From Verrucomicrobiota bacterium (GTDB lineage: Bacteria > Verrucomicrobiota > Verrucomicrobiia > Palsa-1439), in assembly GCA_003152315.1 (NCBI GenBank), contig PLZV01000062.1, positions 84,688 to 148,687 on the forward strand: DNA of 64,000 nucleotides, written 5' to 3'. The notes below the pieces were generated by a model. That model was not told the DNA's origin and made no database searches. It saw only the letters and a list, made by a program, of their open reading frames with translations. Shown piece after piece: positions 14,215 through 37,041 of the stretch. How positions within the stretch are numbered: the stretch's first letter is position 1; every line of letters begins with the position of its first letter. The translations under genes were made by a program, and so were the position numbers.

Positions 14215-14221
14215 AACTTCC

Positions 14222-15475: not shown

Positions 15476-16736
15476 ACAATTCGCCGAACGACTGAAGCCG
15501 CACCTCTATTTGTGGGTGGCGTTGGCGGTCGCCATCCCGCGTCTGGCGTTTGTCGCGATCGCGCCGAACCGCAATGCTTACGGAAATGCCCCGGGCTTGT
15601 TGGCACTTGCGAAGAACATGGCCGAAGGCCGCGGTTATCTCGATGAAGAAGGCAATCCCGACAGCTATTTCAATCCCGGGTATCCCTGTCTCCTGGCAGG
15701 CTGTCGATTGCTATCGGGTGATTTGCTGCTGGCGGTGAAAATTGCCCACATCCTTCTTGATATCACAACGGCTGTGGTCTTGAGCTGGCTGCTCCTGAGA
15801 ACCAGCTCGGCACTCACGGCGCTTTTTTTTGCGACCGCCTTCGCGCTGCATCCCTTGTTCATCCATCTGGGCAATAACGTGAACGATGAACCCCTTCTCA
15901 TCTTCTTCGTCGTCACCAGCTTCGTCGCCTTGCACCAGGCCATCGACCGTCCCGTCGCGTGGCGTTTCGCACTCGCGGGGCTCCTCTTGGGACTCGCGAT
16001 CTTCACCAAGAGCACCCCGATTTTTCTGCCCTTTGTCGTTACGGGCGTGATATTCCTTGTCATTAGAAGGATGAAAGCCAACCGTGTGACTCACTGGCTC
16101 GCGTACTTGCTCGCCTCCATCATCGTGCTGTTGCCATGGGCGTACCGTAACTACCTCGTCTTTGGCCATTTCTCGTTCAGCACCCGCGGCATTGGCACGA
16201 ACTTGTGGTGGGGTTCCAATCCCCGCATCTTCGCCACGTACGGCAAAGCCCAGCGCGTTGCTGCGAATGAAATCGAACTTGAGATGGTTGCCAAGGGGAT
16301 TCAACCTCCGGCAGAGAACAATGTCTTCGATCGGGAGCACTGGCGTTTGCGTATGGCCATCCAGCAGTACAAAGAGCTGTTGCATCAACCCGGCTTCCTT
16401 GCCAAGGTCCTGTTTCTCAAGGCCACGCGAACTCTGTATGCCACCGAAGACCGTCCGTCCGCACACCTGCCACTAATTCTACTGCAAATTCCCACGATTC
16501 TTCTGGCCACCTATGGGATGGTTCGATTGTGGAAGCGGGCAGAAACCAGGGTGCTGGCGTGGCTGTTGGTGCTCTACATCGGCTACTATTACGGCATAGT
16601 CACCGCGGGAATGCCGATGGTCCGGTACTTTGCGCCGGCTATCCCCTTACTGCTGGCCGCGGCGGCCGTCGGCCTGGTCGCGCTGTTGTCCACAATGTGC
16701 GCAATCGAAAAAACCAAACTCCTGGCGCAACCTTGA
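15459..16736 (+). CDS. GT39-like membrane glycosyltransferase, second copy
   Basis: This 425-residue membrane protein has the same overall plan as its upstream neighbour: N-terminal helix, an acidic loop with NMAEGRGYLDEEGNPDSYFN, YPCLLAGCRL, and LLPWAYRNYLVFGHFS matching the neighbour's PWTARNYHIFG. It starts at ATG 15459, overlapping the upstream gene by 17 bases. The two genes look like diverged tandem paralogues. The protein is probably a periplasm-facing transferase that uses a polyprenyl-phosphate sugar. The acceptor, whether polymer, lipid or protein, is not shown. Confidence 0.77.
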   Translation: MLPALEQFAERLKPHLYLWVALAVAIPRLAFVAIAPNRNAYGNAPGLLALAKNMAEGRGYLDEEGNPDSYFNPGYPCLLAGCRLLSGDLLLAVKIAHILLDITTAVVLSWLLLRTSSALTALFFATAFALHPLFIHLGNNVNDEPLLIFFVVTSFVALHQAIDRPVAWRFALAGLLLGLAIFTKSTPIFLPFVVTGVIFLVIRRMKANRVTHWLAYLLASIIVLLPWAYRNYLVFGHFSFSTRGIGTNLWWGSNPRIFATYGKAQRVAANEIELEMVAKGIQPPAENNVFDREHWRLRMAIQQYKELLHQPGFLAKVLFLKATRTLYATEDRPSAHLPLILLQIPTILLATYGMVRLWKRAETRVLAWLLVLYIGYYYGIVTAGMPMVRYFAPAIPLLLAAAAVGLVALLSTMCAIEKTKLLAQP

Positions 16737-17503
16737 GCCCACTAAAACATGCCCTGCTCAATCCCGAGGTGCGCCCGCTCTGGGGTAACGGCGATGAAGC
16801 GCAATTGCTGGCGGCGTATGAGCGCGTTTGGAGCCGCAAGACAATCATCCGTCAACTGTACGAGACCTGGTACGAAAGAATCGCCACTGAACTGCAACCG
16901 GGCTCGATCATCGAGGTCGGCGCCGGCACGGGTAACCTCAAACGTTGGCTTAAGGCGCGTGGACGCGCGTGCTGGACACTGGACATTCTGCCAGGCAAAT
17001 ATGTGGACGTGCAGGCTGACGCATTGCAAATGCCCCTGGCGGCAGGAAGCGTGGATAACATCGTGATGGTGGATGCACTGCACCACTTCGCCCGTCCGCT
17101 GGCGTTCCTGAAACATGCCGCCGAAGTGTTGCGCCCGCGCGGACGTATCTTGCTGATCGAGCCGTACGTCTCGGTCTGGGGTCGGTTCGTGTACCGCTAC
17201 TTGCACCACGAGCGTGTGGATTTCGATTTTGGGGAATCCACCGCCTCGAAGGAGGCCTGGGACGGCAATGCCGCCATTCCGCGTCTCACCCTGGCCCGCG
17301 TCGAACAGGAGATCCACGACCTGCGGATCCGGCGCATCAACTATTGCGAGTTTCTCGCCTACCCGCTCTCGGGCGGATTCTCGTACCGCTCTTTGTTACC
17401 CGGCCCCGTGCTACTGGCACTCCATCGCCTCGAACAAGCGCGCCTGTTCCAGAATCGGACATTATCTTTGCGAGTGATTGCCGTGTTGGAGAAATCCGCG
17501 TGA
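16733..17503 (+). CDS. Class I SAM-dependent methyltransferase with TTG start
   Basis: This 256-residue protein has motif I IIEVGAGTGNLKRWL near residue 56, then ACWTLDILPG and DNIVMVDALHHFARPLAFL, as in Methyltransf_11. No ATG exists between the upstream stop and the conserved domain. The only fitting start is TTG at 16733, which overlaps the previous stop as TTGA, a device used repeatedly in this cluster. The C-terminal third is basic and helical. It presumably methylates a polymer component. The next gene also starts by overlap. Confidence 0.82.
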   Translation: MSPLKHALLNPEVRPLWGNGDEAQLLAAYERVWSRKTIIRQLYETWYERIATELQPGSIIEVGAGTGNLKRWLKARGRACWTLDILPGKYVDVQADALQMPLAAGSVDNIVMVDALHHFARPLAFLKHAAEVLRPRGRILLIEPYVSVWGRFVYRYLHHERVDFDFGESTASKEAWDGNAAIPRLTLARVEQEIHDLRIRRINYCEFLAYPLSGGFSYRSLLPGPVLLALHRLEQARLFQNRTLSLRVIAVLEKSA

Positions 17504-18933
17504 ACGCCGCTGCTTCCATGCCCGATCGCAGTTCCCTCGTCAAATACTTCGACGCCCTCGCGCCCACGCGCGTGCGCTGGGTGGAGAAGAACCGCTACTA
17601 CCACCAACAATTGGGGAGGACGTTTTCCTTTTTCATCCCACCCAACCGTTCCGTGCTGGAGATCGGCTGCGGCGCCGGCCAGTTGCTGGCCTCGCTGAAA
17701 CCGGCGCGCGGCGTGGGGATCGACCTCAGCCCGAACATGGTTCAGGTCGCTCGTGAACGCTATCCACACCTCGAGTTCCGCGTGGACGATCTCGAGGCAC
17801 TCCAACTCGACGAGAAATTCGACTATGTTGTGGTTTCCGACGTGCTCGGCTTCCTCTACGATGTCCAGCGCAGCCTGGAAAATCTGCGCCGCGTCTGCTC
17901 GCCGCGCACCCGCGTCGTGATCTCGTACTACAATTTCCTCTGGGAACCCGTCCTCAACGCTGGGGAGCGCCTTGGGATAAAGGCCCGTCAGCCCACCCAA
18001 AACTGGTTGGGCACCGCCGACGTGGCCAATCTCCTCGACCTAGCCGGCTTTGAAGTCATCCGCGAAGCGTCCCGCCTGCTCTTGCCCAAACGCGTGCCGT
18101 TATTGTCCCTGCTCTGCAACCGCTTTCTGGTAAACCTGCCGGTGTTCCGTCACTTGGCCCTAACGTTTGTGATCGTCGCGCGCCCGAAGCCCATGTCGCG
18201 TCAAGACCAACCGAGTTGCTCCGTGGTCATTCCCGCCCGCAACGAGCGCGGGAATGTCGAGGAAGCCGTTCGCCGCATCCCGCAACTCGGTCGTCACACG
18301 GAGATCATCTTTGTGGAAGGCAATTCCAACGATGGGACTGCGGAGGAAATCCGGCGCGTAATTGCCGCCCATCCCGAAGGTGACATTAAGTTCATCTCGC
18401 AGGGCAGCGGACGCGGTAAAGGCGATGCTGTGCGCAAAGGCTTCACCGCCGCGACCGGCGACGTGTTGATGGTCCTCGATGCCGACCTCACTGTACCGCC
18501 GGAAGAACTGCCCAAGTTCTACGACGCCTTGATTTCCGGCCAGGGGGATTTCATCCACGGTTCTCGGCTCGTCTACCCGATGCAGGACCAGGCGATGCGC
18601 TTTCTCAACATCCTTGGCAACAAGTTTTTCAGCCTCGCGTTCACCTACCTGCTCGACCAGCGGTTTAAAGACACGCTCTGCGGCACCAAAGTCCTCTATC
18701 GTGCGGACTACAATCAAATCGCCGCCAACCGTACTTACTTCGGTGATTTCGATCCGTTCGGTGATTTCGATTTGATCTTCGGGGCGGCGAAACTGAATCT
18801 GAAGATCATCGAAGTTCCCATCCATTATTTCGCTCGAACCTATGGCGCCACAAACATCAGTCGTTTCAAACACGGCTGGCTCCTGCTGCGCATGTCTGTG
18901 TTTGCCATGCGCAAAATGAAATTTGTCGAATAA
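17500..18933 (+). CDS. Fusion: class I methyltransferase and GT2 (DPM-like) glycosyltransferase
   Basis: This is a 477-residue two-domain protein. Residues about 10-220 are a methyltransferase with VLEIGCGAGQLLASL near 52 and GVGIDLSPNMVQVARERY. Residues about 235-477 are a GT2 domain with SVVIPARNERGNVEEA, IIFVEGNSNDGTAEE and VLMVLDADLTVPPEELP. The GTG at 17500 overlaps the upstream stop; ATG 17518 is the alternative. The GT2 part resembles polyprenyl-phosphate sugar synthases but lacks the C-terminal membrane helices of the copy at 12326. Linking the two activities may channel a methylated sugar donor, but this is inference. Confidence 0.84.
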   Translation: MNAAASMPDRSSLVKYFDALAPTRVRWVEKNRYYHQQLGRTFSFFIPPNRSVLEIGCGAGQLLASLKPARGVGIDLSPNMVQVARERYPHLEFRVDDLEALQLDEKFDYVVVSDVLGFLYDVQRSLENLRRVCSPRTRVVISYYNFLWEPVLNAGERLGIKARQPTQNWLGTADVANLLDLAGFEVIREASRLLLPKRVPLLSLLCNRFLVNLPVFRHLALTFVIVARPKPMSRQDQPSCSVVIPARNERGNVEEAVRRIPQLGRHTEIIFVEGNSNDGTAEEIRRVIAAHPEGDIKFISQGSGRGKGDAVRKGFTAATGDVLMVLDADLTVPPEELPKFYDALISGQGDFIHGSRLVYPMQDQAMRFLNILGNKFFSLAFTYLLDQRFKDTLCGTKVLYRADYNQIAANRTYFGDFDPFGDFDLIFGAAKLNLKIIEVPIHYFARTYGATNISRFKHGWLLLRMSVFAMRKMKFVE

Positions 18934-18936
18934 CGT

Positions 18937-19980
18937 GTGCCCTTCGTGCAGCCGCCCAAAACCGTCATGCAAGTCGTACTCAGTCTGCGCGTGGGCGGAC
19001 TGGAACGCGTTGTCCTGGACCTGGTCCGGAACGCCTCCGAGGAATTCCGCCTCATCGTTTGTTGTTTGGAGGAGTCGGGGGCGTGGGCTGGCGAAGCGCC
19101 GCGTGTTGTCGCGCTCAACAAGAGACCCGGCGTGGATTGGCGGCTCTTCTGGAAGGTTGCGCGCCTCGCGCGCACCGAAAAAGTCGATGTGATCCACACG
19201 CATAATTCCGCCGCCCATATTTACGGGGCAATCGGCGGCAAACTCGCCGGTATCAAGGTTCTGCACACGGAACACGGCAAGAACCTTGGTGAAGAAGCCC
19301 GCTCGTTCCGTCTGAATCGCCGGGCCGGACGTTTCACCGACCTCACTGTTGCCGTTTCGGAGAAAATTGGCCGGGAGGCGCGCGACTTTGAAGGCGTTCC
19401 GTCTGACCGTCTCGCGATTATCGCCAACGGCATCTGTGTCGAGCGCTTCGACTTGCCACGCCACGCGCCCAACCGACGCATCGGCACGGTCGGTCGCCTT
19501 GTACGCGAAAAAAACTACCCGTTGTTGCTGCGCGCCGTCACCGCGATCCCCAACACGGAACTCGTTTTCGTCGGCGATGGCCCGCTGCGCGGAGAATTGG
19601 AAGGCGAAGCGGGTCCGCAGGTCCAATTCCTTGGTCAACGGGCTGATATCGCAGAGTTGTTGGCTGGATTTGATGTCTTTGCGCTCTCGTCGAGCACGGA
19701 AGGCATGAGCATCGCCCTGTTGGAAGCCATGGCCGCCGCTTGCCCGACCGTCGTCACGGCGGTCGGCGGCAACACGGAATTGATCCAACATGAGGTCACG
19801 GGACTCGTTGTTCCACCCGATGACGCGGCGGCATTGCGCGCAGCGATCGAACGGCTCTTAGATGATCGCGGGCTGGCCAACCGCCTCGGCGCGGCAGCGC
19901 GCGAGGTCGCCCGCCAACGCTACAGTGTCGCGGTGATGACCCAACGCTACGAAGAACTGTGGCGACGGCTGGCAGCATGA
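18937..19980 (+). CDS. GT4-family glycosyltransferase
   Basis: This is a GT-B enzyme of about 347 residues. The N-terminal motif is VVLSLRVGGLERVVLDL, where GGxER is the usual GT4 acceptor-side loop. VIHTHNSAAHIYG is the interdomain strand. The donor half has GTVGRLVREKNYPLLLRA and SSSTEGMSIALLEAMAA with the E-x7-E motif. GTG 18937 is used; ATG 18967, directly before the first strand, is an alternative. No ribosome site is clear for either. The gene is co-directional with and close to its neighbours. Confidence 0.85.
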   Translation: MPFVQPPKTVMQVVLSLRVGGLERVVLDLVRNASEEFRLIVCCLEESGAWAGEAPRVVALNKRPGVDWRLFWKVARLARTEKVDVIHTHNSAAHIYGAIGGKLAGIKVLHTEHGKNLGEEARSFRLNRRAGRFTDLTVAVSEKIGREARDFEGVPSDRLAIIANGICVERFDLPRHAPNRRIGTVGRLVREKNYPLLLRAVTAIPNTELVFVGDGPLRGELEGEAGPQVQFLGQRADIAELLAGFDVFALSSSTEGMSIALLEAMAAACPTVVTAVGGNTELIQHEVTGLVVPPDDAAALRAAIERLLDDRGLANRLGAAAREVARQRYSVAVMTQRYEELWRRLAA

Positions 19981-21038
19981 GACTGTTGTTCGTATCCAAC
20001 CTGTTTCCCAATGCCGCGGAACCGGTGCGCGGCATCTTCAATGCCCAGCAGATCGCGGCGTTGTCGAAGCTGTGCGAAGTGACGGTGATTGCGCCGACCA
20101 GCCAAACCATGCCCGACGAAAACCTCGCGGGCGTGAGGGTAATTCACCCACGTTGTTTTCATGTGCCTGTCTTATCGCGTTCATTTAACGGCTGGCTATT
20201 CGCCAGGGCAGTCGAACCGGTAATCCACCGCGAACGATTTGACATGGTGCTGGCCAGTTGGGCTTACCCCGATGCGTACGGCGTGATGCTCGTGGCCGAG
20301 AAGGTGAAGTTTCCATTTGCCACCGCCGTGCTCGGAAGCGATGTGAACGCTTTCTTCGACAACCCGACGCGCAAACAACAGATCCTGCGCGCGTTGCGGG
20401 CCAGCCGCGTGGTCTTTGCCAAAAGCAAGGCCCTCCAATCGCGTCTGACTTCAGAAGGGATCGAATCGGTAATCGACTACAATGGCATTGACCGCGAGAA
20501 GTTCCGGCCGCGCGACCGCGGCGACGCCTGTCGCCAGTTGGGGCTCGATCCAAAACGTCGCCGAGTTCTCTACGTCGGCAATCTCTTGCCAGTGAAGGGC
20601 CCAACCGTGCTGGCACGCGCTGCTGAGCAATTGCAGGACGTCGACATAATCTTTGTTGGCAGCGGCCCGGAAACAATTACTGCGGGCCGATGCGTCGGCG
20701 CGCGGCCACACGAGGAAATCCCGTCGTGGATGAATGCCTCTGACGTGCTCTGCCTGCCAAGTTTGAATGAAGGCCTCCCCAACGTCGCGCTCGAAGCCAT
20801 GGCCTGTGGGTTGCCCGTCGTCGCGTCGCGCGTCGGCGGCGTGCCTGAAATTGTGCGAGAGGGTGTGAACGGTTTTCTCGTGCCGCCTTCCGATCCAAAT
20901 GCGCTGGTCGAAGCGCTACGACGCGCGCTCGCCACGAAATGGGATCGCGAAGCGATCCGCGCTTCCGTCTCACAATTCGACTGGGACGTGAATGCTCGCG
21001 CCGTGTTGGACGCCTTGGACAAAGGGGTTGTCGCATGA
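19977..21038 (+). CDS. GT4-family glycosyltransferase
   Basis: This 353-residue GT-B enzyme begins MRLLFVSNLFPNAAEPVRGI and has the donor-site sequences VLYVGNLLPVKGPTVLARA and LPSLNEGLPNVALEAMACG (E-x7-E). The ATG at 19977 overlaps the upstream TGA, which sets the start. It is similar in plan to teichuronic acid and colanic acid type transferases of the TuaC/WcaL kind, but I cannot assign its linkage. It is coupled to the next gene by another ATGA overlap. Confidence 0.86.
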   Translation: MRLLFVSNLFPNAAEPVRGIFNAQQIAALSKLCEVTVIAPTSQTMPDENLAGVRVIHPRCFHVPVLSRSFNGWLFARAVEPVIHRERFDMVLASWAYPDAYGVMLVAEKVKFPFATAVLGSDVNAFFDNPTRKQQILRALRASRVVFAKSKALQSRLTSEGIESVIDYNGIDREKFRPRDRGDACRQLGLDPKRRRVLYVGNLLPVKGPTVLARAAEQLQDVDIIFVGSGPETITAGRCVGARPHEEIPSWMNASDVLCLPSLNEGLPNVALEAMACGLPVVASRVGGVPEIVREGVNGFLVPPSDPNALVEALRRALATKWDREAIRASVSQFDWDVNARAVLDALDKGVVA

Positions 21039-22369
21039 GTGGATCACTCCTCAATCCCCTGCGTCGCGCCACCATTCGTTGGATGGATGCCGTGAAGTAT
21101 TCGCCGCGGACAACGGACCTGCGGTTGGCAAGCACCAAAGCTCGACTCGGTTTCACCCGCAATGAAGCACGGCGCGCGAACCTGCTCATGCGCGCCTATC
21201 GGCTTGCGGAAGCGCAGCCAACTCGGGAGGCATTGCGCGCCCAGGCGGAGCCCTACTTGAATGGCTCGAACGGCATGGTTTGGCGCGAAAAGCACATCGG
21301 CTGGGACCGGTATCCGCGTGTCAGGGAAAGTTCGCTCATCAACCGCACGATCATCTTGAAGGCGCCGCGGCCAAATGGTGAAAAGGGCGTCATGCTCGTC
21401 ATGTTCGAGTACAACTGGCTGCGGCTGCTCGCAAATGTGAAGGACTTGGGCTACCTCGCCGAAAAGTTCGACATCATCCTTTCCACAAGCTGGTCGCCAA
21501 CGGACTATGCGTTGCTCGCGCTGGCGCTGCAATCTCTGCGCGGCACGATCTTTGTGCAAGCCTGTAACCACATCGAGATTCCCTGGATTGAAGGGTTTAG
21601 TCCCCGGTTGAAGTGCCTGCCCTGTATCGCTTGTGATTGGATCAACCCGGACTGCTATCAGCCAAAACCCTGTGCGCAGCGACAAACCGACATCCTGATG
21701 GTTGCCAACTGGGCGCCGTTCAAGCGGCATTGGCAATTTTTTGACGCTTTGCGCCGAATGCCTCGTCACCTGCGGATTACGATGATCGGACAGGCAGAAG
21801 GGCCTCATACGTTAGCGATGGTTCGGGATCAAGCTGTCCGGTTCGGCGTCAAACAGGACATCGACTTTGTGGAGAACATCGCCATTGAAGACGTCACCCG
21901 CCATCAATGCGACAGCAAGGTCTCGCTCATCCTGTCGCGTCGCGAAGGCTGTTGTGTGGCGGCGGTCGAGTCCTTGTTTGCCGACTCCCCGCTGGGCATG
22001 ATGCGTGACGCGCACGTCGGCCCCAAGGCGTATATTAACGATCAGACCGGCATGTTGCTGACCCCGGCTCGAATGGATTTACAGCTGCAGGAATTTCTTG
22101 AGAACGCCGAGGGCTTCCGCGCACGTGCCTGGGCGACGAAGAATATTTCGTGTCATGAATCGATTGCCAAAGTGAACGCCTTGTTGCGTTCCCACGCGAA
22201 ACAGCGCAACGTGCCATGGACAACGGACTTGAAAACTCCCTACTGGCGACCGTATCCGAAATTCCTAAGCTCGAACGATTGCGAGGAAATGCGGCCCGTC
22301 TACGAGGATTTGTCCGCGCGTTTCCCCGAGGTTTTCGGACCCGACCTTCTGAAGAAGGGCTCGGCTTGA
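21035..22369 (+). CDS. Divergent GT4-like glycosyltransferase
   Basis: This 444-residue protein is less typical than its neighbours. The C-terminal half has ILMVANWAPFKRHWQFFDAL and LSRREGCCVAAVESLFA, which occupy the places of the GT4 donor motifs. The N-terminal half lacks a clear GGxxR loop and carries Cys-rich CLPCIACDWINPDC near residue 200, of unknown role. It starts at ATG 21035 by ATGA overlap. A transferase role is likely from fold and context, with lower certainty than for other GT4 genes here. Confidence 0.7.
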   Translation: MSGSLLNPLRRATIRWMDAVKYSPRTTDLRLASTKARLGFTRNEARRANLLMRAYRLAEAQPTREALRAQAEPYLNGSNGMVWREKHIGWDRYPRVRESSLINRTIILKAPRPNGEKGVMLVMFEYNWLRLLANVKDLGYLAEKFDIILSTSWSPTDYALLALALQSLRGTIFVQACNHIEIPWIEGFSPRLKCLPCIACDWINPDCYQPKPCAQRQTDILMVANWAPFKRHWQFFDALRRMPRHLRITMIGQAEGPHTLAMVRDQAVRFGVKQDIDFVENIAIEDVTRHQCDSKVSLILSRREGCCVAAVESLFADSPLGMMRDAHVGPKAYINDQTGMLLTPARMDLQLQEFLENAEGFRARAWATKNISCHESIAKVNALLRSHAKQRNVPWTTDLKTPYWRPYPKFLSSNDCEEMRPVYEDLSARFPEVFGPDLLKKGSA

Positions 22370-22406
22370 TATAACCGGTACGGTGTTCTTTCGGAGAGAT
22401 CATTCC

Positions 22407-23180
22407 ATGTGGATCTACGGAGCCCTATCCAAGCTGTTGCCGGACTCGAAACTTAAAACCCGTGTTCGCGATTTCTGTTTCGGGAACATCCTCTACAAGG
22501 TGACGCGTGGCACAGCCGAGCATCCCCTGAAGGACGGTCTGCGGGGTAAATTCCACAAACTTGTATTTCTGCCGAATGGCGAGTACACCTGCGAACTCAT
22601 CGGTTACGAGAAGCATTATTCCATCCGGGAGGGCGATGTCGTCATCGATGCGGGTGCGTACCTTGGCCACTTTACCGTGTATGCCGCCATGAAGGTGGGA
22701 AGGACCGGCAAGGTGGTGGCTTTCGAGGCCGACCCGTACATCTATCGGCTGCTGCTTCGCAACATTGAACTCAACCATCTGACCAATGTCCTGGCCATCA
22801 ACAAAGGCGTCTGGAGCCATGATACCGAATTGACTTTCGACAGTCGTGGCAACGCCTCGCAGATCGTCACCGAAGGTACCCAGGTGAAAACACTCGTGAA
22901 AAAGATTCTCGTCATCGGGTTGGATTCCGAAATGCAGCGCCTTGGCCTGCCCAAGGTCGACCTTGTAAAAATGGATATTGAAGGCGCGGAACTCGAAGCC
23001 GTCCAGGGGGCGCGCCGCCTCATGCAGCATCAGAATTGTCACTTCGCCATCGCGTCGTACCACATCGTCCATGGTGTGCAAACCTCGGTAACACTGGAAA
23101 AGTTCTTCCAGGGCAGCGGATATAAGGTCGTCACGGAGTACCCCGCGCACACGACCACCTATGCCGCCAGGACCCTGTGA
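22407..23180 (+). CDS. FkbM-family methyltransferase
   Basis: This 257-residue protein contains the FkbM signature: VVIDAGAYLGHFTVYAA near residue 76, then VVAFEADPYIYRLLLRNIELN, and VDLVKMDIEGAELEAVQGA with the conserved DIEGAE. The ATG at 22407 is preceded by GGAGAG at 22393-22398 and is preferred over a GTG at 22383. FkbM enzymes O-methylate sugars and natural products and are frequent in capsule and O-antigen loci. The substrate is likely a polymer sugar. Confidence 0.87.
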   Translation: MWIYGALSKLLPDSKLKTRVRDFCFGNILYKVTRGTAEHPLKDGLRGKFHKLVFLPNGEYTCELIGYEKHYSIREGDVVIDAGAYLGHFTVYAAMKVGRTGKVVAFEADPYIYRLLLRNIELNHLTNVLAINKGVWSHDTELTFDSRGNASQIVTEGTQVKTLVKKILVIGLDSEMQRLGLPKVDLVKMDIEGAELEAVQGARRLMQHQNCHFAIASYHIVHGVQTSVTLEKFFQGSGYKVVTEYPAHTTTYAARTL

Positions 23181-23223: not shown

Positions 23224-24540
23224 ATGAAAATTAGCATCTTTGGCCTTGGTTATGTTGGTTCCGTCACGGCGGCCTGTTTCGCGGACAAGGGCCACGACGT
23301 CATCGGCGTCGAGGTAAATCCTGATAAATTGGCGTTGTTCCGCGCGGGCCAGACGCCGCTGTTCGAGCCGGGTTTGGCCGAACTTTTGGCGAAAGTCCAC
23401 GGTGCCGGCCGCTTCGATGCGACCGCGGACGCCGCCGAAGCGATTCGCGGCTCCAGCATCTCGTTCATTTGCGTGGGCACACCCAGCAAGAAAGGCGGAC
23501 ACGCGGACCTGTCGCACGTTGAGCATGTCTCGCAGGAAATTGGCGAAGCCTTGCGCGGTAAACAAGGAACGCACACGGTGGTTGTCCGCAGCACGATGCT
23601 GCCGGGCAGCATCGAGGGCGTTGTCATCCCGCAAATCGAGTCGGCGTCCGGTAAACGCGAGGGCCAGGACTTCCATGTCGTTGCCAACCCGGAATTCATG
23701 CGCGAAGGCTCGGCGATTCGCGATTTTTACGAACCGCCATTCGTTGTGATCGGTGAGCGCCGGGCCGGGGTTGGCGAGGCGCTTGCCGAGTTGTACCACT
23801 GCGTCGATGCGCCACAGGTGCGCATAACCATTCGCGCGGCGGAGGCCATCAAGTTTGCGTGCAACGCATTTCACGCGCTGAAAATCACCTTCGCCAACGA
23901 GATCGGGCAATTCTGCAAAGCCCACGGCATCGATAGCCATGAAGTGATGGACATTGTTTGCCGCGATACGAAGCTCAACATTTCCAAAACCTATCTCCAG
24001 CCGGGTCTGGCGTACGGCGGTTCCTGCCTGCCGAAGGATTTGCGCGCTCTTGTCGGGCGGGCTCGCGAAAACGATGTCGAACTGCCCATGCTGGAGGCCA
24101 TCGCCAAGAGCAACCTCAACCAGATTCAGCGGACGATCGATTTCATTACCGAGGTCGGCCACCGTGAGGTTGGCATCCTGGGATTGAGTTTCAAAGTCGG
24201 CACCGACGATTTGCGGGAGAGTCCCCTCGTCATCATGGCCGAGACGCTTCTGGGTAAAGGCTTCAAATTGGCGATACGCGATTCCGATGTTGAACTGACC
24301 CGTTTGACCGGCGCCAACAAGCGCTTCCTTGAGGAAAAACTGCCGCACATTAATTCGCTTTTGTCGGCCTCGTTGGAGGAAGTTGTTGTGCGGAGCAAGG
24401 TGCTCGTCGTCTGCAAGAATGCTCCCGAGTACCGCGAGTTGCCGCGATTAATTTCTCCGCATCATCATATCGTCGATCTGGTTGCTGCGCTGAAGAGCGC
24501 CAAAATCCCCACCGCGCAATATCACGGTTTGTACTGGTGA
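23224..24540 (+). CDS. algD: GDP-mannose 6-dehydrogenase (AlgD-type UDP/GDP-sugar dehydrogenase)
   Basis: This 438-residue enzyme of the UDP-glucose/GDP-mannose dehydrogenase family starts MKISIFGLGYVGSV (NAD site) and has ICVGTPS, VANPEFMREG and the catalytic YGGSCLPKDLRAL with Cys at residue 268. From memory, the Pseudomonas AlgD catalytic residue is also Cys268, and AlgD has a similar length and shares VRST, GLSFKxGTDDLRESPLV and a terminal GxxW. It would oxidise GDP-mannose twice to GDP-mannuronate with NAD. This suggests a uronic acid in the polymer. The choice of GDP-mannose over UDP-glucose rests on overall likeness and should be tested. Its stop overlaps the next start (GTGA). Confidence 0.85.
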   Translation: MKISIFGLGYVGSVTAACFADKGHDVIGVEVNPDKLALFRAGQTPLFEPGLAELLAKVHGAGRFDATADAAEAIRGSSISFICVGTPSKKGGHADLSHVEHVSQEIGEALRGKQGTHTVVVRSTMLPGSIEGVVIPQIESASGKREGQDFHVVANPEFMREGSAIRDFYEPPFVVIGERRAGVGEALAELYHCVDAPQVRITIRAAEAIKFACNAFHALKITFANEIGQFCKAHGIDSHEVMDIVCRDTKLNISKTYLQPGLAYGGSCLPKDLRALVGRARENDVELPMLEAIAKSNLNQIQRTIDFITEVGHREVGILGLSFKVGTDDLRESPLVIMAETLLGKGFKLAIRDSDVELTRLTGANKRFLEEKLPHINSLLSASLEEVVVRSKVLVVCKNAPEYRELPRLISPHHHIVDLVAALKSAKIPTAQYHGLYW

Positions 24541-25733
24541 GAATTCTTACACTGATCTCGAAATTCCCGTGGCCGCTCACGGATGGCGCGGTCATTCGCG
24601 ATTTCAACCTCCTGCGCGAAGCGGCGAAGCGCCATGAGGTCTCCCTGCTTTGCTTCCTGTTCAAACCCAGCGACCGTGAGCAGTTCGATGCGCTGCGGCC
24701 ATTCTGCAAGAAAATTGTCGGACTCGACCTCGTGCGAACGAAAGGACGCGCCCTTATCAACGCCGCCCAAAGCCTCGTCACCCCTGACCCTTTCATCCTC
24801 CGCGAATACTGGCGGCCGGAGATGGCGCGCGCGCTGGAAAAGTTCGTGGATGAAGAGCGCATCGACGTGATCCACTCGCATTTCCTGCACATGAGCCAGT
24901 ATGTCGGCCACAAACGCGGTGCCGCCTTCGTGCACGACGCGCATAATCTCGAACACATTCTCTGGCAGCGGATGGGACGCACCACCAGCAATCCCCTCAA
25001 GAAAGCGTTCATTCAGACGCAGTACGGCAAGCTGGTGCGACGGCAGCAGGACGTGGCTCGTGCCAGCGAGAAATGCGTCGTGCTTTCGGACGAAGATCGC
25101 GCGGAATATCGACGCATCTGCCCCGAGGCCGATGTGACGACGGTTCCCAACGGCGCGGACGTGGAATACTGGACGCCACGCGACGGCGTCTCCGAGCCAG
25201 CGTCGATCCTTTACTTCGGCAACCTCAGTTGGCCACCGCAGGCCGACGCCGCCATCTACTTTCACGACAAAATCCTTCCCCTCATTCGCCGGCAGGTGCC
25301 CGACGCGAAGTTCTACATTGTGGGGCAAAACCCGCCCGAGAGCGTGAAAGCGCTCGCGAGCGACCACGTCATTGTCACTGGGTTTGTGCCGGACATGCGC
25401 GAGTACGTCGCCCGGGCCACCGTCGTCGTCATGCCGTTGCGCGCGGGCGCGGGCACGAAGCATCGGGTGTTTCAGGCGTTGTGCATGAAGAAGCCGGTGG
25501 TCTGCACGGCCGTGGCCGCCGAAGGGATTGCGCTGACGCACGGCGAAACGGCGCTGCTGGCGGATGATCCTGAAAGATTTGCCAGCGCGACCGTTTCCCT
25601 GCTACAAGATGAAGCGTTGCGTCAGCGGCTCGGCGAACGAGGCCGTCAGCTTGTCCTCGATCGCTATGACTGGCGCGCGATCTACGAACGTCTGGAGGAG
25701 GCTTTTCAGGAGGCGGTCCGCAAACGAAAATGA
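24537..25733 (+). CDS. GT4-family sugar transferase (PEP-CTERM/EpsH-associated type)
   Basis: This 398-residue GT-B enzyme starts at GTG 24537, overlapping the upstream stop. It begins RILTLISKFPWPLTDGAVIRD and contains FVHDAHNLEHILW, SILYFGNLSWPPQADA and PLRAGAGTKHRVFQALCM. These resemble the sugar transferases often found with exosortase-linked polysaccharide loci (the Stp1 group, TIGR03087 from memory). PEP-CTERM proteins do occur in this window (35922-36740 and 53281-54180), which fits. It is joined to the next gene by ATGA. Confidence 0.84.
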   Translation: MRILTLISKFPWPLTDGAVIRDFNLLREAAKRHEVSLLCFLFKPSDREQFDALRPFCKKIVGLDLVRTKGRALINAAQSLVTPDPFILREYWRPEMARALEKFVDEERIDVIHSHFLHMSQYVGHKRGAAFVHDAHNLEHILWQRMGRTTSNPLKKAFIQTQYGKLVRRQQDVARASEKCVVLSDEDRAEYRRICPEADVTTVPNGADVEYWTPRDGVSEPASILYFGNLSWPPQADAAIYFHDKILPLIRRQVPDAKFYIVGQNPPESVKALASDHVIVTGFVPDMREYVARATVVVMPLRAGAGTKHRVFQALCMKKPVVCTAVAAEGIALTHGETALLADDPERFASATVSLLQDEALRQRLGERGRQLVLDRYDWRAIYERLEEAFQEAVRKRK

Positions 25734-27790
25734 CCAACGGCAAGAACTATCGTGTCGGTCTCGTCGGCGCAGGTTACGTCAGCGAGTTTCACATCAAGGC
25801 GCTGAAGCGCTTGCCTAATGTGCGCCTGGTTGGCATTACCGACCTCGATGCCGCGCGCGCCAAGGCCACGGCCCAGAGTTTCGGCATCGCCGCCTTTCCA
25901 TCGCTCAAGGTGATGGCCGCCGAAGGTCTTGACGTTGTCCACGTGCTCACGCCGCCAAGCATCCACGTCACCGTCGCCCTCGAAGCGCTGTCGCTGGGCT
26001 GTCATGTGCTCGTGGAAAAGCCACTCGCCACGAGTGTCGAGGATTGCGATCGGCTTATTGCGGAAAGCCAGGCGCGCGGCCTGCGGGTCTGCGTGAATCA
26101 CTCGTTGCTCGGTGATCCGTTTGTGAAACGCGCGCTGGCATTGGTAAGGGCCGGGGCGATTGGTGATGTGTTGACCGTCGACTATCTGCGCAGTTCGAAT
26201 TACCCGCCCTATCGCGGCGGTCCGCTGCCGCTGCATTACCGCGAGGGCGGCTATCCGTTTCGCGATCTCGGCGTGCACGCGTTGTATCTGCTGCAAGAGT
26301 TTCTCGGGAACGTCGAAGATGTCCACGCTGAATTTCGCACTTCGGGCGTGAACGATAGCGATCCCGATCTCCACTTCGATGAGTGGCGCGCGCTGGCGCG
26401 CTGCGCCAAGGGCACCGCCAATATCCAGCTTTCCTGGAACGTCAAGCCGTTGCAGCACCAGCTCATCATCCAAGGTACTCGCGGTTCGCTCCGCGCCGAC
26501 CTCTTCGCGATGTACCTAACGCGCCGCCGCCATACGCCGTTGCCAAAAGCCATCGAGCGCGTCGTCAATGCGTTGACCGAATCGATTTCGTCGGCAGCCC
26601 AATTGATTTGGAACGCCGCGCTCTTCATCGCTGGCCAGGTCCAGCCCTACCAGGGACTTCACAATTTCGTGCAGGCGTTTTACGAATCGCTTTCCACCAG
26701 CGCGTTGATGCCCGCGAGCCTGGAGCAGGGCCGCGAGGTTGTCCGCTGGACGGAGCGGGTCGCGCGCGATGCCGATCACGCCAAGGCGAAGCTCTACAGC
26801 CAATATCAACCGAGCGGACGTCCGGCCGTTGTTGTTACGGGCGCGAATGGCCTGCTCGGTCGCGCGTTCGTCAATCGTCTCATCAAGGAGGACGAGTTCG
26901 TCCGCCTGTTCGTGCGCCGACTGCCTCCGCCTGAAATCCTGCATCACCCGCAAGTCGAGGTGGTCCTCGGCGACCTGGGCGATCCGGCGGCCGTTGATCG
27001 CGCCCTGGAGGACGCCACGGCGGTGTTTCACATCGGCGCGGCGATGGGCGGCGGTTGGGCGGCGCATGAGGCCGCGACGATCACCGGTACGCAAAACGTC
27101 GTCGATGCATGCCTCAAGCATCAGATGCCGAAGATGGTTTATCTTAGCTCCCTCTCGGTGATCGATTGGGCGGGACATCCAGCCAACCAACCCGTCACCG
27201 AGTCCGCGACACTCGAGCCCGCCCCGCAACAACGCGGCTACTATACGCAAGCCAAGCTCGAAGCAGAACGTATCGTGCGCGCCGCCGTGCAGGAGCGCGG
27301 CTTGGCGGCGGTCATTCTGCGTCCCGGCCAGATTTGGAGCGAGAAGAGTCCGCTGATTTCCCCCGCCGTTGGCATTCGCGTTGGTAATCGGCTCGTGGTA
27401 ATCGGCGACGGTTCGAATCTGTTGCCACTGGTGCACGTGGATGACGTCGTGGAGGCCATCGTGCTGGCGACGCAAAGCACCTTTCACGGCGGTGAGGTTT
27501 TTCAATTTGTGGACAACGAACTGATGAGCCGCGAAGAACTCGTGCGCTTGTACACCCTCAAACGTGAGCCACGATTGCGAGTGTCGCGAGTTTCGCTGAA
27601 GCTGGCCTGCTTCCTTGCGAGCGGTGTCGAGGGGCTTGCCAACCTGCTGAAACTTCCCGCGCCAATCTCGCCCTATCGCCTGCGCTCCGCCGTCGCGCCG
27701 CTCGTGTTCGATTGCACCAAAGCGCGGGAGCGACTGGGCTGGCAACCACGCGTCCACACCCGCGAAACGCTGCGGAAGCTGCTGACATAG
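25730..27790 (+). CDS. Fusion: Gfo/Idh/MocA oxidoreductase and NAD-dependent epimerase/dehydratase
   Basis: This 686-residue protein has two NAD-binding halves. Residues 1 to about 345 are Gfo/Idh/MocA: RVGLVGAGYVSEFHIKAL, the conserved EKPLAT near 97 and a C-terminal alpha/beta domain. Residues about 365-686 are an extended SDR: VVVTGANGLLGRAFVNRL near 367, YLSSLSVIDW and YYTQAKLEAE with the YxxxK pair near 503. Each half is of normal length for its family. The protein probably carries out two consecutive steps on a sugar nucleotide, such as oxidation then epimerisation or reduction. ATG 25730 overlaps the upstream stop. Confidence 0.87.
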   Translation: MTNGKNYRVGLVGAGYVSEFHIKALKRLPNVRLVGITDLDAARAKATAQSFGIAAFPSLKVMAAEGLDVVHVLTPPSIHVTVALEALSLGCHVLVEKPLATSVEDCDRLIAESQARGLRVCVNHSLLGDPFVKRALALVRAGAIGDVLTVDYLRSSNYPPYRGGPLPLHYREGGYPFRDLGVHALYLLQEFLGNVEDVHAEFRTSGVNDSDPDLHFDEWRALARCAKGTANIQLSWNVKPLQHQLIIQGTRGSLRADLFAMYLTRRRHTPLPKAIERVVNALTESISSAAQLIWNAALFIAGQVQPYQGLHNFVQAFYESLSTSALMPASLEQGREVVRWTERVARDADHAKAKLYSQYQPSGRPAVVVTGANGLLGRAFVNRLIKEDEFVRLFVRRLPPPEILHHPQVEVVLGDLGDPAAVDRALEDATAVFHIGAAMGGGWAAHEAATITGTQNVVDACLKHQMPKMVYLSSLSVIDWAGHPANQPVTESATLEPAPQQRGYYTQAKLEAERIVRAAVQERGLAAVILRPGQIWSEKSPLISPAVGIRVGNRLVVIGDGSNLLPLVHVDDVVEAIVLATQSTFHGGEVFQFVDNELMSREELVRLYTLKREPRLRVSRVSLKLACFLASGVEGLANLLKLPAPISPYRLRSAVAPLVFDCTKARERLGWQPRVHTRETLRKLLT

Positions 27791-27794
27791 GCAG

Positions 27795-27825
27795 TCACCC
27801 TTCGCTTTGCTCAGAATGACGACTC
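27795..27825 (+). repeat. Short dispersed repeat overlapping a start codon
   Basis: The 31 bases after the fusion gene read, in reverse orientation, as a member of the GTCATTCTGAGC...GAAGGGTGAC type. A related copy lies inside the giant gene at 60152-60199. The ATG of the next gene (27816) lies within this copy, so the repeat may have supplied its start. Confidence 0.5.
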
Positions 27826-28949
27826 TCTGGGTCACAGTCTTTTTTGTATCTGCCGGCGTGATCGTTTATTCCTATGCGATCTATCCGCTGCTGCTGGCGC
27901 TGGTGCCGGTGCGTCGGCGCGGACAGCTTCCCGAACCTGCCGAGTGGCCGTTCGTTTCCGTGTTGATCAGCGTGTACAACGAGGAAAAGCATATCACCCA
28001 GCGCATCGGGAATTTGCTGGCACTCGATTATCCGCCTGAAAAACTCGAGATTCTGATTGGTTCGGACGGCTCGACCGACCGCACGGATGAATTGGTGCGC
28101 CGATTCAGCGATCCGCGCGTGCGACTGCACGAATTCGATCAGCGTAGCGGAAAGCCCAGCATGCTGAATCGGCTCATCCCGCAAACACGCGGTGAGCTAC
28201 TTGCCTTCAGCGACGCGAATGCGCTGTTTGCGCCTGATGCCCTGCGCAAACTCGCGCGACATTTCCGCGATCCGCGCATCGGCGGCGTCTGCGGGCGGTT
28301 GGTGTTCCACGGGGACAAGAGTGAAACCGATGAAGAGCGCTACTGGGAGTTGGAAACGTATCTCAAGACGCGTGAGAGCGCGCTGGACTCGTGTCTCGGC
28401 GCGAATGGGGCCATCTACGCGATCCGCAAGTCGTGTTGGCCCGGTATTCCCGACAATACGTTCGTGGACGACTTCGTCATTGGCATGCGGGTTCGTGAAC
28501 AGGGCCTGCGAGTCGTGTATGACCGCGACGCCATGGCCACGGAAGAATTGCCCCAATCCGTCAGCCACGAAATGACGCGGCGCATCCGTATTGGCGCGGG
28601 TGATTTTCAGGCCTTGTTTCTTTGCTGGCGCTCACTGCTCCCGTGGCGCGGGTTTCATTCGCTGGCGTTCTGGTCCCATAAAGTCCTGCGCTGGCTGGCG
28701 CCCTTTTTCATGGTGGCGACCTTGATCTCAAACATCGCGCTGCTTCCCCGCCCGCTTTTCATGGTACTGCTGGCGCTGCAACTGGCCTTTTACGCGTTGG
28801 CGATCGTCGGCGCGTTACGGAAGGGGCGGAAGAGCATTTTGTTCAGCGCACCGCACTATTTTGTGACGATCAACCTGGCCCTGTTGCTCGGGTTCTTCCG
28901 TTTCATAACGGGCACGCAACAAGCTGCGTGGAAACGTACTGCGCGGTAG
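27816..28949 (+). CDS. Membrane-bound GT2-family glycosyltransferase
   Basis: This protein of about 377 residues has one N-terminal membrane helix, a GT-A domain and about three C-terminal helices, as in processive or membrane-linked GT2 enzymes. Motifs are FVSVLISVYNEEKHITQRI, ILIGSDGSTDRTDELV, LLAFSDANALF and FVDDFVIGMRV. A Q-rich loop with RRIRIGAGDFQAL sits where processive enzymes carry QxxRW, but the exact motif is absent. ATG 27816 follows a short dispersed repeat. It may extend the polymer or attach a side sugar. Confidence 0.84.
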   Translation: MTTLWVTVFFVSAGVIVYSYAIYPLLLALVPVRRRGQLPEPAEWPFVSVLISVYNEEKHITQRIGNLLALDYPPEKLEILIGSDGSTDRTDELVRRFSDPRVRLHEFDQRSGKPSMLNRLIPQTRGELLAFSDANALFAPDALRKLARHFRDPRIGGVCGRLVFHGDKSETDEERYWELETYLKTRESALDSCLGANGAIYAIRKSCWPGIPDNTFVDDFVIGMRVREQGLRVVYDRDAMATEELPQSVSHEMTRRIRIGAGDFQALFLCWRSLLPWRGFHSLAFWSHKVLRWLAPFFMVATLISNIALLPRPLFMVLLALQLAFYALAIVGALRKGRKSILFSAPHYFVTINLALLLGFFRFITGTQQAAWKRTAR

Positions 28950-28971
28950 GATCCGTTGGGCCATCATATTG

Positions 28972-30063
28972 ATGTCGAAGAACATCCAGCTCTGGCTGCC
29001 GAGCTATCTCTCGCGGCGACCGCCGCAAGCGGTCACGTCGACGCACGTTTTCTTTTGCTTTGTGGACCACTACGAACCCTTGTGGAACAAGGCGTCGCGC
29101 CATCAGGGATTGGAGCGAGTGGAGCATTGGTTCGAGAATTACCCGCGGATGGCGGACAATTTTCGCGATGCGGATGGTCGTCCGCCGCAGCATACGTTCT
29201 TTTATCCCACCGAGGAATATGTGCCCGAGTACCTGGAGTTGCTGGCGCGGCTTTGTGGTCAGGGTTACGGCGAAACTGAAATCCACCTGCACCACGACAA
29301 CGATACTGCGGAAAACCTCAAAGCCACGCTCAACGATTTCAAAGCGAAACTGGAACATCACGGTTTTCTTTCCAACGGTCGCTATGGGTTCATCCACGGC
29401 AATTGGTCGCTGGACAATTCGCGCGCCGATGGACGGTGGTGCGGGGTAAACAACGAACTGCAGGTTTTGCGCGATACTGGTTGCTACGCCGACTTCACGC
29501 TGCCGAGCGCACCGAGCGAGTGCCAGACGCGCAAGATCAATTCGATTTACTACGCGACCGACGATCCGCAGCTTCCGAAATCACATGACACCGGCGTGGA
29601 TGTCTGCGTCGGAGGCGAAGCCAGCGGCGATCTGATGATCGTGCAAGGCCCGCTGGCGTTGAACTGGAGCAGCCGTAAATTCGGCTTGCTGCCACGCATC
29701 GAGAATGGCGAGGTGGCCCACAATGCGCCAGCCGTCGCCGACCGCATCGACAACTGGGTGGCGCAACGGATCAGCGTCGTTGACAAACCTGATTGGGTTT
29801 TCGTAAAAGTTCATACACACGGCTGCCAGGAAATGAATCTCAATGCGGCGCTGGGGCCATCCGTCACGGAAATGCACCAGCATCTGCAAGACAAGTACAA
29901 TGATGGCACGGCCTTTGTGCTGCACTACGTAACGGCCCGGGAGGTTTTCAATTTGATCAAGGCCGCTGAGGCGGGTCAGACGGGCGACCCGAATCGGTAC
30001 CGCGATTACGTCCTGCCTCCCCCACCTGTTATCGGGGCACCACGACAAGGTGCCAAGCCTTGA
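28972..30063 (+). CDS. Polysaccharide deacetylase-like protein
   Basis: This 363-residue protein has no signal peptide. An N-terminal Asp/His pair (FFCFVDHYEPLW), an EIHLHHDNDTAENL motif near residue 105 and YGFIHGNWSLDNS near 142 are placed as in NodB-fold carbohydrate esterases: Asp, then HxxxH-like metal ligands, then a further strand. The exact NodB motifs are altered, so this is a distant or new branch. It overlaps the next gene by TTGA. In context it could deacetylate a sugar precursor or the polymer. Confidence 0.6.
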   Translation: MSKNIQLWLPSYLSRRPPQAVTSTHVFFCFVDHYEPLWNKASRHQGLERVEHWFENYPRMADNFRDADGRPPQHTFFYPTEEYVPEYLELLARLCGQGYGETEIHLHHDNDTAENLKATLNDFKAKLEHHGFLSNGRYGFIHGNWSLDNSRADGRWCGVNNELQVLRDTGCYADFTLPSAPSECQTRKINSIYYATDDPQLPKSHDTGVDVCVGGEASGDLMIVQGPLALNWSSRKFGLLPRIENGEVAHNAPAVADRIDNWVAQRISVVDKPDWVFVKVHTHGCQEMNLNAALGPSVTEMHQHLQDKYNDGTAFVLHYVTAREVFNLIKAAEAGQTGDPNRYRDYVLPPPPVIGAPRQGAKP

Positions 30064-30734
30064 ACGACAAGATTTACAAGTGCGCAGGTTTGGCCGACCG
30101 GATTTTAGCCTTCATCGCGATTGTCGTTTTCCTGCTCCAAATTCTCCTGGCGGTGACCGGGCCGCCACAGGGTATTGTTGACTGGCTGGAAATGCCCGAA
30201 CTCGCACCGCGCGAAACACCGCGCAACATTGTGGTTCTGGGAGGCGGCGGCATTCCGAGTGGTTCCAGTTTGCTGCGCACATATTATGCGGCGCAGTATG
30301 GGAAGAACCTGACCGGCACAATTTTTGTTGTCGCGCTGCCGGCTGATGGTAATCCGGAAACGAGCAGTGTGGGACGAATGCGGGATGAGCTGGTGTTTCG
30401 GGGAGTCTCCGTGTCGGCGATCCGAATGGAGTATCATGGGTTAAACACCCACGAGCAGGCCGTCAACGTTCAACACTTGCTCGGGCCCGAAGCGCTCAAA
30501 CAGCCGATCTTGATCGTCACGTCGGGATACCACATGCGGCGGGCAGTCCTATGTTTCCGCAAACTGGGATTTACGAAGGTCGAGGGCCTGCTGGCGTCCG
30601 AAATCGGGGCGGAAGCGGGGATTGGCCCATGGGGCTGGTTGCGCTATGGGGCGTGGGCGAACCTGGAGCGGGGAATTCGCGTTTCCAGGGAGTTGGCGGC
30701 TTTGGCGGCCTACAAATTTGAAGGCTGGATTTAG
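30060..30734 (+). CDS. DUF218 (YdcF/ElyC-like) membrane-anchored protein
   Basis: This 224-residue protein starts at TTG 30060 by overlap with the previous stop. One N-terminal membrane helix (AFIAIVVFLLQILLAV) is followed by a DUF218 domain: NIVVLGGGGIPSGSS, then NTHEQAVNVQHLL and ILIVTSGYHMRRAVLCF, with the conserved TxxxHMxRA. E. coli members (YdcF, ElyC) act near envelope polymer synthesis, but the biochemical function is unsettled. It belongs to the surface polymer cluster by position. Confidence 0.8.
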   Translation: MNDKIYKCAGLADRILAFIAIVVFLLQILLAVTGPPQGIVDWLEMPELAPRETPRNIVVLGGGGIPSGSSLLRTYYAAQYGKNLTGTIFVVALPADGNPETSSVGRMRDELVFRGVSVSAIRMEYHGLNTHEQAVNVQHLLGPEALKQPILIVTSGYHMRRAVLCFRKLGFTKVEGLLASEIGAEAGIGPWGWLRYGAWANLERGIRVSRELAALAAYKFEGWI

Positions 30735-30750
30735 CGTTACGATCTCTTCA

Positions 30751-31755
30751 ATGAAGGCCCGGCAACAAATCCGTCCAGTTCTCTTCTGCGCGGTCGTCTG
30801 CCTGCTGGCAAACGGGGCCTCGGCGAGGCAGGAAGCCCCCGTCATCACCAAACCAACACTGTTCAATGCGCCTGAAGCGGATGTGATTCTGGGAGCGCTG
30901 GAAGTTTTTCCGCCGGACAATGCGTGGAACCAAATCGTTTCCGGATGGCCGGTCCATCCCAACTCACGGAACATCGTCGCGTCGATTGGGAACGACAAGC
31001 CGCTGCGGTACAACGCCGACATGGCGTTCATCCTCGTGCCGCCAGATCAGAAACGGGTCGAGGTCAAGATCACGGATTACGCGGCGGAGTCTGACAAGGG
31101 GCCGTATCCGGTTCCCGACCAACTGCCGATTGAGGGCTGGCCGGTGTGGTTCCGTCGCGATTCCGGACATCCGAACGTGACGCTGGAAGGCGTGCAGCGC
31201 GACAAACTCAATCTTGGCGGCGACCGCCACGCCATCGTTGTTGATCCCATCAATCGGATGCTTTACGAATTCTACGGGATGCGGCGGACCAGCAGCGGTT
31301 GGCAGGCAGCCCAGGCTTCCATCTTCGATCTAAGGACAAACAAACTACGACCAACAGGCTGGACTTCGGCAGACGCGGCGGGCTTGCCCATTTTCCCCGC
31401 TGTCGTGCGGTATGATGAGCTGAAGCGTGGAGAGATCAATCATGCGTTGCGGGTAACGGTCCGCAAGACGCGAAAAGACTTCATCGCCCCGGCTACGCAC
31501 TACGCCAGCCGGCTGACGGACGAAAACCTCCCGCGTATGGGCGAGCGGTTGCGCCTGCGACAGGACTTCGATGCTTCCGGGTTTTCACCGGAAGTTCGCA
31601 CGATCCTGGTGGCGCTGAAGCGTTACGGCATGTTCGTCGCGGACAATGGTATTGAATGGGCAATTTCAGTGGCCCCGGACGAACGCATTCCTGTCCTTCA
31701 CGAGGAACTGCGGCGGGTGAAAGGTTCTGACTTTGAGGTGGTCGTCCCTCCGTGA
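30751..31755 (+). CDS. Secreted protein of unknown function
   Basis: This 334-residue protein has a signal peptide (PVLFCAVVCLLANGASA). No known domain was recognised. Conserved-looking parts are FPPDNAWNQIVSGWPVHPN, DRHAIVVDPINRMLYEFY and GLPIFPAVVRYDELKRGEI. The pattern of aromatic and acidic residues resembles secreted carbohydrate-active proteins, but no catalytic motif can be named. It is the last gene of the long plus-strand cluster and lies 16 bases after the DUF218 gene, so it is probably part of the same transcript. Confidence 0.7.
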   Translation: MKARQQIRPVLFCAVVCLLANGASARQEAPVITKPTLFNAPEADVILGALEVFPPDNAWNQIVSGWPVHPNSRNIVASIGNDKPLRYNADMAFILVPPDQKRVEVKITDYAAESDKGPYPVPDQLPIEGWPVWFRRDSGHPNVTLEGVQRDKLNLGGDRHAIVVDPINRMLYEFYGMRRTSSGWQAAQASIFDLRTNKLRPTGWTSADAAGLPIFPAVVRYDELKRGEINHALRVTVRKTRKDFIAPATHYASRLTDENLPRMGERLRLRQDFDASGFSPEVRTILVALKRYGMFVADNGIEWAISVAPDERIPVLHEELRRVKGSDFEVVVPP

Positions 31756-34045: not shown

Positions 34046-34152
34046 CTTTGTTGAGTATATCGCCGCTGCTAACTGGAATCCGACACGATTTCCGCCGTTG
34101 CGGCTCGTTTTTCCTGTCACCTTTTCGTAGGCTGAGCGTCGTATCCGGTGAC
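34046..34152. promoter_or_regulatory. Shared intergenic region between divergent sigma-factor genes
   Basis: Only 107 bases separate the starts of two divergent ECF sigma genes (34045 minus and 34153 plus). Promoters for both must lie here or overlap the genes. No palindrome or clear -35/-10 pair was identified by eye. Confidence 0.55.
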
Positions 34153-36740: not shown

Positions 36741-37041
36741 ACTGCCTCCCCTGGTTGATTTTTTTCCTGGAACTTTGAATGGGAGACTGGTTCTCCTGTG
36801 CGTGGATCGCCAATTTGCCAACACTCACCGTTCCCTGTTTAAAGAACTACCGAACTCGCTTGCGGCAGAGTCTGCTTGTTACGAAAGGCATAACCAGTGC
36901 GGAGTCGTTACAATTCAGTGACAGGCGACGGATGCGAATGGGGCCGGGACTGTACAATGTTTAGTTCCGCCGCGAAGAGTGTGAGAACATCATGAGTGCG
37001 GATCTAAGCCTCTTCACAGCCCCGTTTGCTACCATCCCTCG

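Follow-up and report, generated by a model that had tools for sequence, protein, structure and literature searches.

The genes of the alginate operon follow the order algD-alg8-alg44-K-E-G-X-L.... The product of the first, GDP-mannose 6-dehydrogenase (GMD, or AlgD), is represented in the PDB by the P. aeruginosa enzyme (1MV8/1MUU/1MFZ). UDP-glucose 6-dehydrogenase (UGD; PDB 4A7P, 2Y0E) has the same family fold and the same catalytic Cys. The residues most specific to the GMD group are, according to PMC4794789, His217, Leu126, Ala263, Arg122 and Cys213, the first of them at a distance of 2.9 A from the 2''-hydroxyl of mannose. Two other kinds of locus bear comparison with the one described here: Wzx/Wzy- or ABC-dependent heteropolysaccharide clusters, and PEP-CTERM/XrtA-type EPS loci with their stp1 (TIGR03087) and stp2 (TIGR03088) transferases. 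In Ca. Accumulibacter, GDP-mannuronic acid is counted among the glycan precursors in the accessible part of PMC12925313, where the word alginate is not used, so that a role for GDP-mannuronate outside alginate has already been thought of. Among the matches listed in the open-licence literature, as far as the available parts of these sources extend (PMC7356697, PMC9850573, PMC3684757, PMC12925313, PMC4189415, PMC10740432 and PMC4794789 included), no GMD was found in an EPS locus of Verrucomicrobiota.

The present locus lies in a stretch of 64,000 nucleotides, referred to as the window, from a Verrucomicrobiota genome of 4.89 Mb (62 contigs, 95.8% complete); the first reading was right to suppose a PVC bacterium. 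Its features are collected in table 1.

Table 1. Features of the window, in order of position.
Feature	Position	Strand	Remarks
Wzt C-terminal domain	8..739	+	domain match
Beta-helix protein with GH141 insertion domain	2540..4432	+	glycoside hydrolase of BT_1002 type; N-terminus suggests secretion (by eye)
Wzx-type polysaccharide flippase	9471..10943	+	Polysacc_synt_3
Wzy/O-antigen-ligase-like region, two ORFs	10995..11672, 11718..12287	+	Wzy_C match only in second ORF, below cut-off
Two PMT-family membrane glycosyltransferases	14069..15475 and 15246..16736	+	family matches
ORF with methyltransferase part and GT2 part (AglJ-like)	17344..18933	+	family matches
TIGR03088-like (stp2-like) GT4 glycosyltransferase	18937..19980	+	224.2 bits, cut-off 409.05
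GT4 glycosyltransferase	19959..21038	+	kept in genus
Weakly GT4-like protein	20939..22369	+	below Pfam cut-off
FkbM-family methyltransferase	22383..23180	+	family match
GDP-mannose 6-dehydrogenase (GMD/AlgD branch)	23224..24540	+	438 aa; Cys268, His217
TIGR03087-like (stp1-like) GT4 glycosyltransferase	24537..25733	+	264.9 bits, family cut-off 316.65; 4 bp overlap with GMD gene
Fusion of Gfo/Idh/MocA oxidoreductase and SDR (NAD-dependent epimerase/reductase)	25730..27790	+	686 aa; 4 bp overlap with preceding GT4 gene
GT2 glycosyltransferase	27807..28949	+	TM-like hydrophobic stretches, one N-terminal and three C-terminal; top PDB match 6yv7
Conserved protein, probably the one first called deacetylase-like	28969..30063	+	no credible Pfam, NCBIfam or PDB match
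DUF218 protein	30060..30734	+	domain match
Protein without family match	30622..31755	+	80% identity to counterpart in genus mate G010
PEP-CTERM protein	35922..36824	-	PF07589, E 1.3e-7

Identity of the dehydrogenase

The dehydrogenase ORF begins with ATG and is uninterrupted, and its product contains all three UDPG_MGDP_dh Pfam domains. A search of all PDB chains returned P. aeruginosa GMD (1mfz/1muu/1mv8) as the top match, aligned over residues 1-438 (E 2.6e-145, 487.6 bits); the runner-up, a UGD, scored 256 bits and was aligned over residues 3-355 only. Identity to P. aeruginosa AlgD is 53%, the two proteins are of nearly equal length (438 and 436 aa), and Cys268 is kept, which bears out the preliminary description of an enzyme with the Cys and the length of AlgD. 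All five of the group-specific GMD residues are present.

A UGD might be mistaken for AlgD, since the two enzymes have fold and catalytic Cys in common, and the window protein passes an NCBIfam cut-off only at the subfamily level of 'nucleotide sugar dehydrogenase'. Such a mistake is very unlikely here. Positions 217, 126, 263 and 122 are occupied by Leu, Pro, Gly and Lys in five UGD rows of the alignment, and the window genome's own UGD has L, P, G, K and C at 217, 126, 263, 122 and 213. This UGD set is absent from the window dehydrogenase, which has His217, Leu126, Ala263 and Arg122 instead and is further separated from UGD by a KLNxS insertion. The existence of that separate UGD gene also speaks against the mistaken-identity reading; it is one of two paralogues elsewhere in the genome (38% identity), the other being a Cap5O/WbpA-like enzyme (31%).

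The phylogeny of AlgD versus UGD, proposed at the outset as a check, points the same way. Twenty GMD-type rows, the window protein among them, form a clade with support 99/99 in a 35-row tree, with the PDB UGDs and the genome's own UGD outside it. A second tree, which omits 14 of those 35 rows (long branches, duplicates, redundant UGDs and both Cap5O/WbpA-type rows), divides 46 GMD-type from 5 UGD rows with split support 100/100. Placement within the UGD clade, named at the outset as a refuting result, did not occur. The window GMD is a deep branch apart from the Pseudomonas alginate clade, the order of branching being ambiguous in the second tree. At the level of sequence, trees and diagnostic residues thus contradict a UGD identity. 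We are highly confident that the ORF encodes a GMD, and specificity for GDP-mannose is predicted from homology.

Gene content of the cluster and the alginate question

The GMD gene lies in an operon-like array that is conserved in its genus. GMD, the TIGR03087-like GT4, the Gfo/Idh-SDR fusion, the GT2 and the gene at 28969 were found in all three genomes of the genus, and the 4 bp overlap between the GMD and GT4 genes recurs in each; the interval between the GT2 and 28969 genes is about 3.5 kb longer in G009 than in the window. GMD of the window shares 93% and 85% identity with its counterparts in the two genus mates, G010 and G009 (85% in G009), and the corresponding dN/dS values are about 0.09 and 0.06, dS being near saturation for the latter. 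Homologues of the weakly GT4-like protein at 20939 adjoin GMD both in the genus and in a Pseudomonadota genome, G688.

The cluster resembles Wzx/Wzy- or ABC-dependent heteropolysaccharide clusters in its Wzx flippase, Wzt C-terminal domain, Wzy-like protein, many transferases and methyltransferases, to which may be added an ABC-2-type permease recognized by eye farther upstream on the contig (L008 17342-18169). It differs from them in containing a GMD. Flippase, Wzt domain and transferases together point to a heteropolysaccharide. The Wzx and Wzt genes, at distances of 12 and 22 kb from GMD, may belong with some other polymer. Both Wzy-like ORFs match one single ORF in the genus mate G009 (L112 17678-19243). 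The stp1-like and stp2-like transferases, with a PEP-CTERM protein nearby, recall the PEP-CTERM/XrtA-type EPS loci, from which the window differs in that both transferases score below the curated cut-offs. PEP-CTERM proteins had been said to lie in reach, and one does. Beside the cluster is a divergent gene pair, 32372-34180 (-) and 34048-35814 (+), each encoding a sigma-70-like region at the N-terminus together with a long additional part; as listed, the two ORFs overlap by 133 bp.

Likeness to the alginate operon extends to the GMD, which would supply GDP-mannuronate. The P. aeruginosa PA7 Alg8 query found no match in the window genome (G000) at E<=0.01, and none was detected in a total of eight GMD-bearing genomes (G000, G009, G010, G001, G216, a Janthinobacterium, a Nitrospiraceae MAG and an Anaerolineales MAG), although a very divergent Alg8 could escape such a search; as a positive control, P. 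kilonensis was matched at E 7.7e-285. Alg44, AlgK, AlgX and AlgL gave no blastp match at E<=1e-4 in the ORFs of the window, of L008 and of the G009 and G010 stretches, and neither the AlgG-containing ORF nor AlgL matched anything within the window. The PA7 query ORFs (Alg44, AlgK, AlgX, AlgL etc.) took their names from the gene order of the operon. The preliminary description had seen no alg8 or alg44 at the locus, and none was detected with the PA7 queries. Its suggestion of an alginate-type polymer fared worse: with no Alg8 match in the genome the classical route is unsupported, and Wzx, the Wzt domain and the many transferases suggest a heteropolysaccharide. That classical alginate is made by this locus is scarcely credible. 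The predicted secreted beta-helix protein exists, although the epimerase or lyase activity once considered for it is contradicted by its GH141 insertion domain and its match to the glycoside hydrolase BT_1002 (5mqp, E 4.3e-54).

The protein at 28969 is similarly not supported as a deacetylase: there was no Pfam match up to E 1, no NCBIfam match up to E 1e-10, and nothing better than E 0.17 in a profile search of the PDB. An AlphaFold model built from two sequences had a mean pLDDT of 37.5. Its family, in which invariant His/Asp/Glu residues were noted, was detected at E<=1e-20 in 10 of 398 Pseudomonadota genomes and in 23 of 363 from the window's own phylum. Twenty stretches around its homologues were inspected; a GT2 homologue is present in nine and GMD in none, so that the GT2-28969 pair does not look specific to GMD. 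The pair (window 27807-30063) recurs in two phyla as an uncharacterized polysaccharide gene pair, and 28969-family/GT2 loci include L195, L198-L200, L203, L204, L206-L208, L214 and L216. The first reading of the DNA was right on the enzyme and mostly wrong on its supporting cast.

The same GT2 is central to another proposal, in which this membrane protein would stand in for Alg8 as a non-canonical synthase, polymerizing GDP-mannuronate directly into an alginate-type mannuronan. In keeping with this are its TM-like stretches, its place as the third gene after GMD in the genus, the closeness of its homologue to GMD in G688, and its best PDB match, 6yv7, an archaeal transferase that uses GDP-mannose and has a minimal fold of the cellulose-synthase kind. 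However, the PA7 Alg8 query matches none of the window's GT2 proteins, this one included, by blastp at E<=1e-4; the QxxRW motif of processive synthases is not evident in it by eye; its relatives beside 28969 homologues (nine of the 20 stretches) sit in surroundings without GMD; and the window and genus-mate stretches contain no homologue of Alg44, AlgK, AlgX or AlgL. We regard a synthase role as unlikely.

Since GMD sits in a cluster for a mixed-sugar polymer and no alginate polymerase was found, a different mannuronate-containing coat is the probable product. We favour the reading that this operon makes GDP-mannuronate for a mannuronate-containing heteropolysaccharide. The proposed pathway would run as follows. 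(i) A GDP-mannose pyrophosphorylase, whose gene lies elsewhere in the genome, would provide GDP-mannose. The genome has six NTP-transferase matches, of which the one at L126 is a mannose-1-phosphate guanylyltransferase (TIGR01479, 329.8 bits against a cut-off of 372.95 that is set for the two-domain enzyme; PDB 2x5s, E 2.1e-72). (ii) GMD would oxidize GDP-mannose in two NAD+-dependent steps through Cys268, yielding GDP-mannuronate. (iii) GDP-mannuronate would be the donor for a transferase encoded in this operon; the likeliest candidates are the TIGR03087-like GT4, whose gene overlaps that of GMD, and the GT2, whose gene is the third after it. (iv) Mannuronate, perhaps modified by the Gfo/Idh-SDR fusion, would enter a lipid-linked repeat unit. 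(v) The Wzx/Wzy- or ABC-type machinery of the cluster would export and assemble the heteropolysaccharide.

Step (iv) touches on a further alternative, in which the enzyme is a GMD by descent and the pathway sugar a derivative: the fusion protein would oxidize and reduce GDP-mannuronate, for instance by C3 epimerization, to give a rare uronic acid. The fusion gene overlaps its neighbour in the operon and is present throughout the genus. The two halves of its product show likeness, in each case below cut-off, to UDP-GlcNAc 3-dehydrogenase (N-terminal) and to sugar epimerases and reductases (C-terminal). At two further GMD loci (G216, G227) an ADH-Gfo/Idh bi-domain oxidoreductase is encoded two genes upstream. 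Yet a homologue of the fusion (44%) lies near a 28969 homologue in G613 without GMD. This alternative is rather improbable.

GMD loci and their partners in other genomes

At E<=1e-100 the window GMD matches 9 of 387 genomes of its own phylum, its own genome included, and 30 of 398 Pseudomonadota genomes, all 30 of these matches falling on the GMD side of the second tree. A second GMD match of G590, without a locus, forms no part of the locus counts. The Pseudomonadota loci differ in their surroundings. Twelve of the 30 have an alg8 homologue within 1.5 kb of GMD. In ten, counting L160 of G569 with its gene about 2 kb away, a TIGR03087-like gene is found at a distance of up to about 2 kb. Five have a particular GT4, a heparinase II/III-like gene or both close by, and the remaining three (L134, L145 and L148) have none of these neighbours. 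Hence 18 loci have no alg8 match within 1.5 kb, including L134 and L148, which belong to the Pseudomonas alginate clade and whose alg8 may sit farther off. Among 12 GMD loci of the window's own phylum, the window excluded, none has alg8, four have the heparinase-like gene with the GT4, and two, those of the genus mates, have a TIGR03087-like gene. With 18 of 30 Pseudomonadota and all 12 own-phylum loci lacking a nearby alg8, GMD alone is a poor marker of alginate.

A heparinase II/III-like gene stands beside GMD at L093, L104, L105, L110, L135 (the same gene as L054) and L147, which represent the own phylum and Pseudomonadota, and in five of these six loci the same GT4 is found on the other side of GMD. 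A Nitrospiraceae MAG (L028) has a heparinase II/III-like gene about 5 kb from GMD. Pfam confirmed five of six suspected heparinase proteins, the sixth, at L121, being a sulfate permease. The window genome has two heparinase-like genes, both on other contigs. The heparinase, GMD and GT4 set is possibly a uronate-polymer module distinct from alginate. At L158 (G721), a GMD-like protein adjoins an Alg8-like gene (43%) and has Arg in place of His at position 217; its substrate may differ.

The pairing of GMD with TIGR03087-like transferases is less easily read. Of 398 Pseudomonadota genomes, 68 have a TIGR03087 gene that scores over the cut-off, and most of these have no GMD. In the 11 that have both, the gene listed as over the cut-off is on a contig other than that of GMD, and any TIGR03087-like gene next to GMD is a paralogue that scores below it. 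A tree of 34 TIGR03087-like proteins and two outgroup rows, its deep branches poorly resolved, splits the GMD-linked proteins into three groups, one of the window genus, one of nine Pseudomonadota rows, and one that joins G688 to a Nitrospiraceae row. The best tree therefore does not bear out a single clade of GMD-linked proteins. If the pairing originated on several occasions, that would speak for a functional link; the other possibility is that the two genes do no more than occur together in EPS loci, as the mostly GMD-free distribution of TIGR03087 and the absence of a single clade may indicate. The strongest case of pairing is G688 (L189), where a TIGR03087-like gene, GMD, homologues of the 20939, GT2 and 28969 genes, and a GT4 are gathered within about 10 kb; its GMD and TIGR03087-like protein group elsewhere in the trees than those of the window.

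A possible second use of GDP-mannuronate

The name algD is easily read as 'alginate'. We tentatively suggest that GDP-mannuronate might also serve a second, largely undescribed kind of polysaccharide, namely heteropolysaccharides that contain mannuronate. In some of their loci the partner of GMD would be a TIGR03087-like transferase, as a candidate mannuronosyltransferase; in others, a specific GT4 together with a protein of heparinase II/III type. Such pairings are not confined to one phylum, and the window genus and G688, from two different phyla, have the same gene set around GMDs of different tree branches. GMD may then mark mannuronate in non-alginate coats. To our knowledge, the donors of TIGR03087-like transferases are unassigned, and the proposal, if true, would provide testable donor assignments for them.
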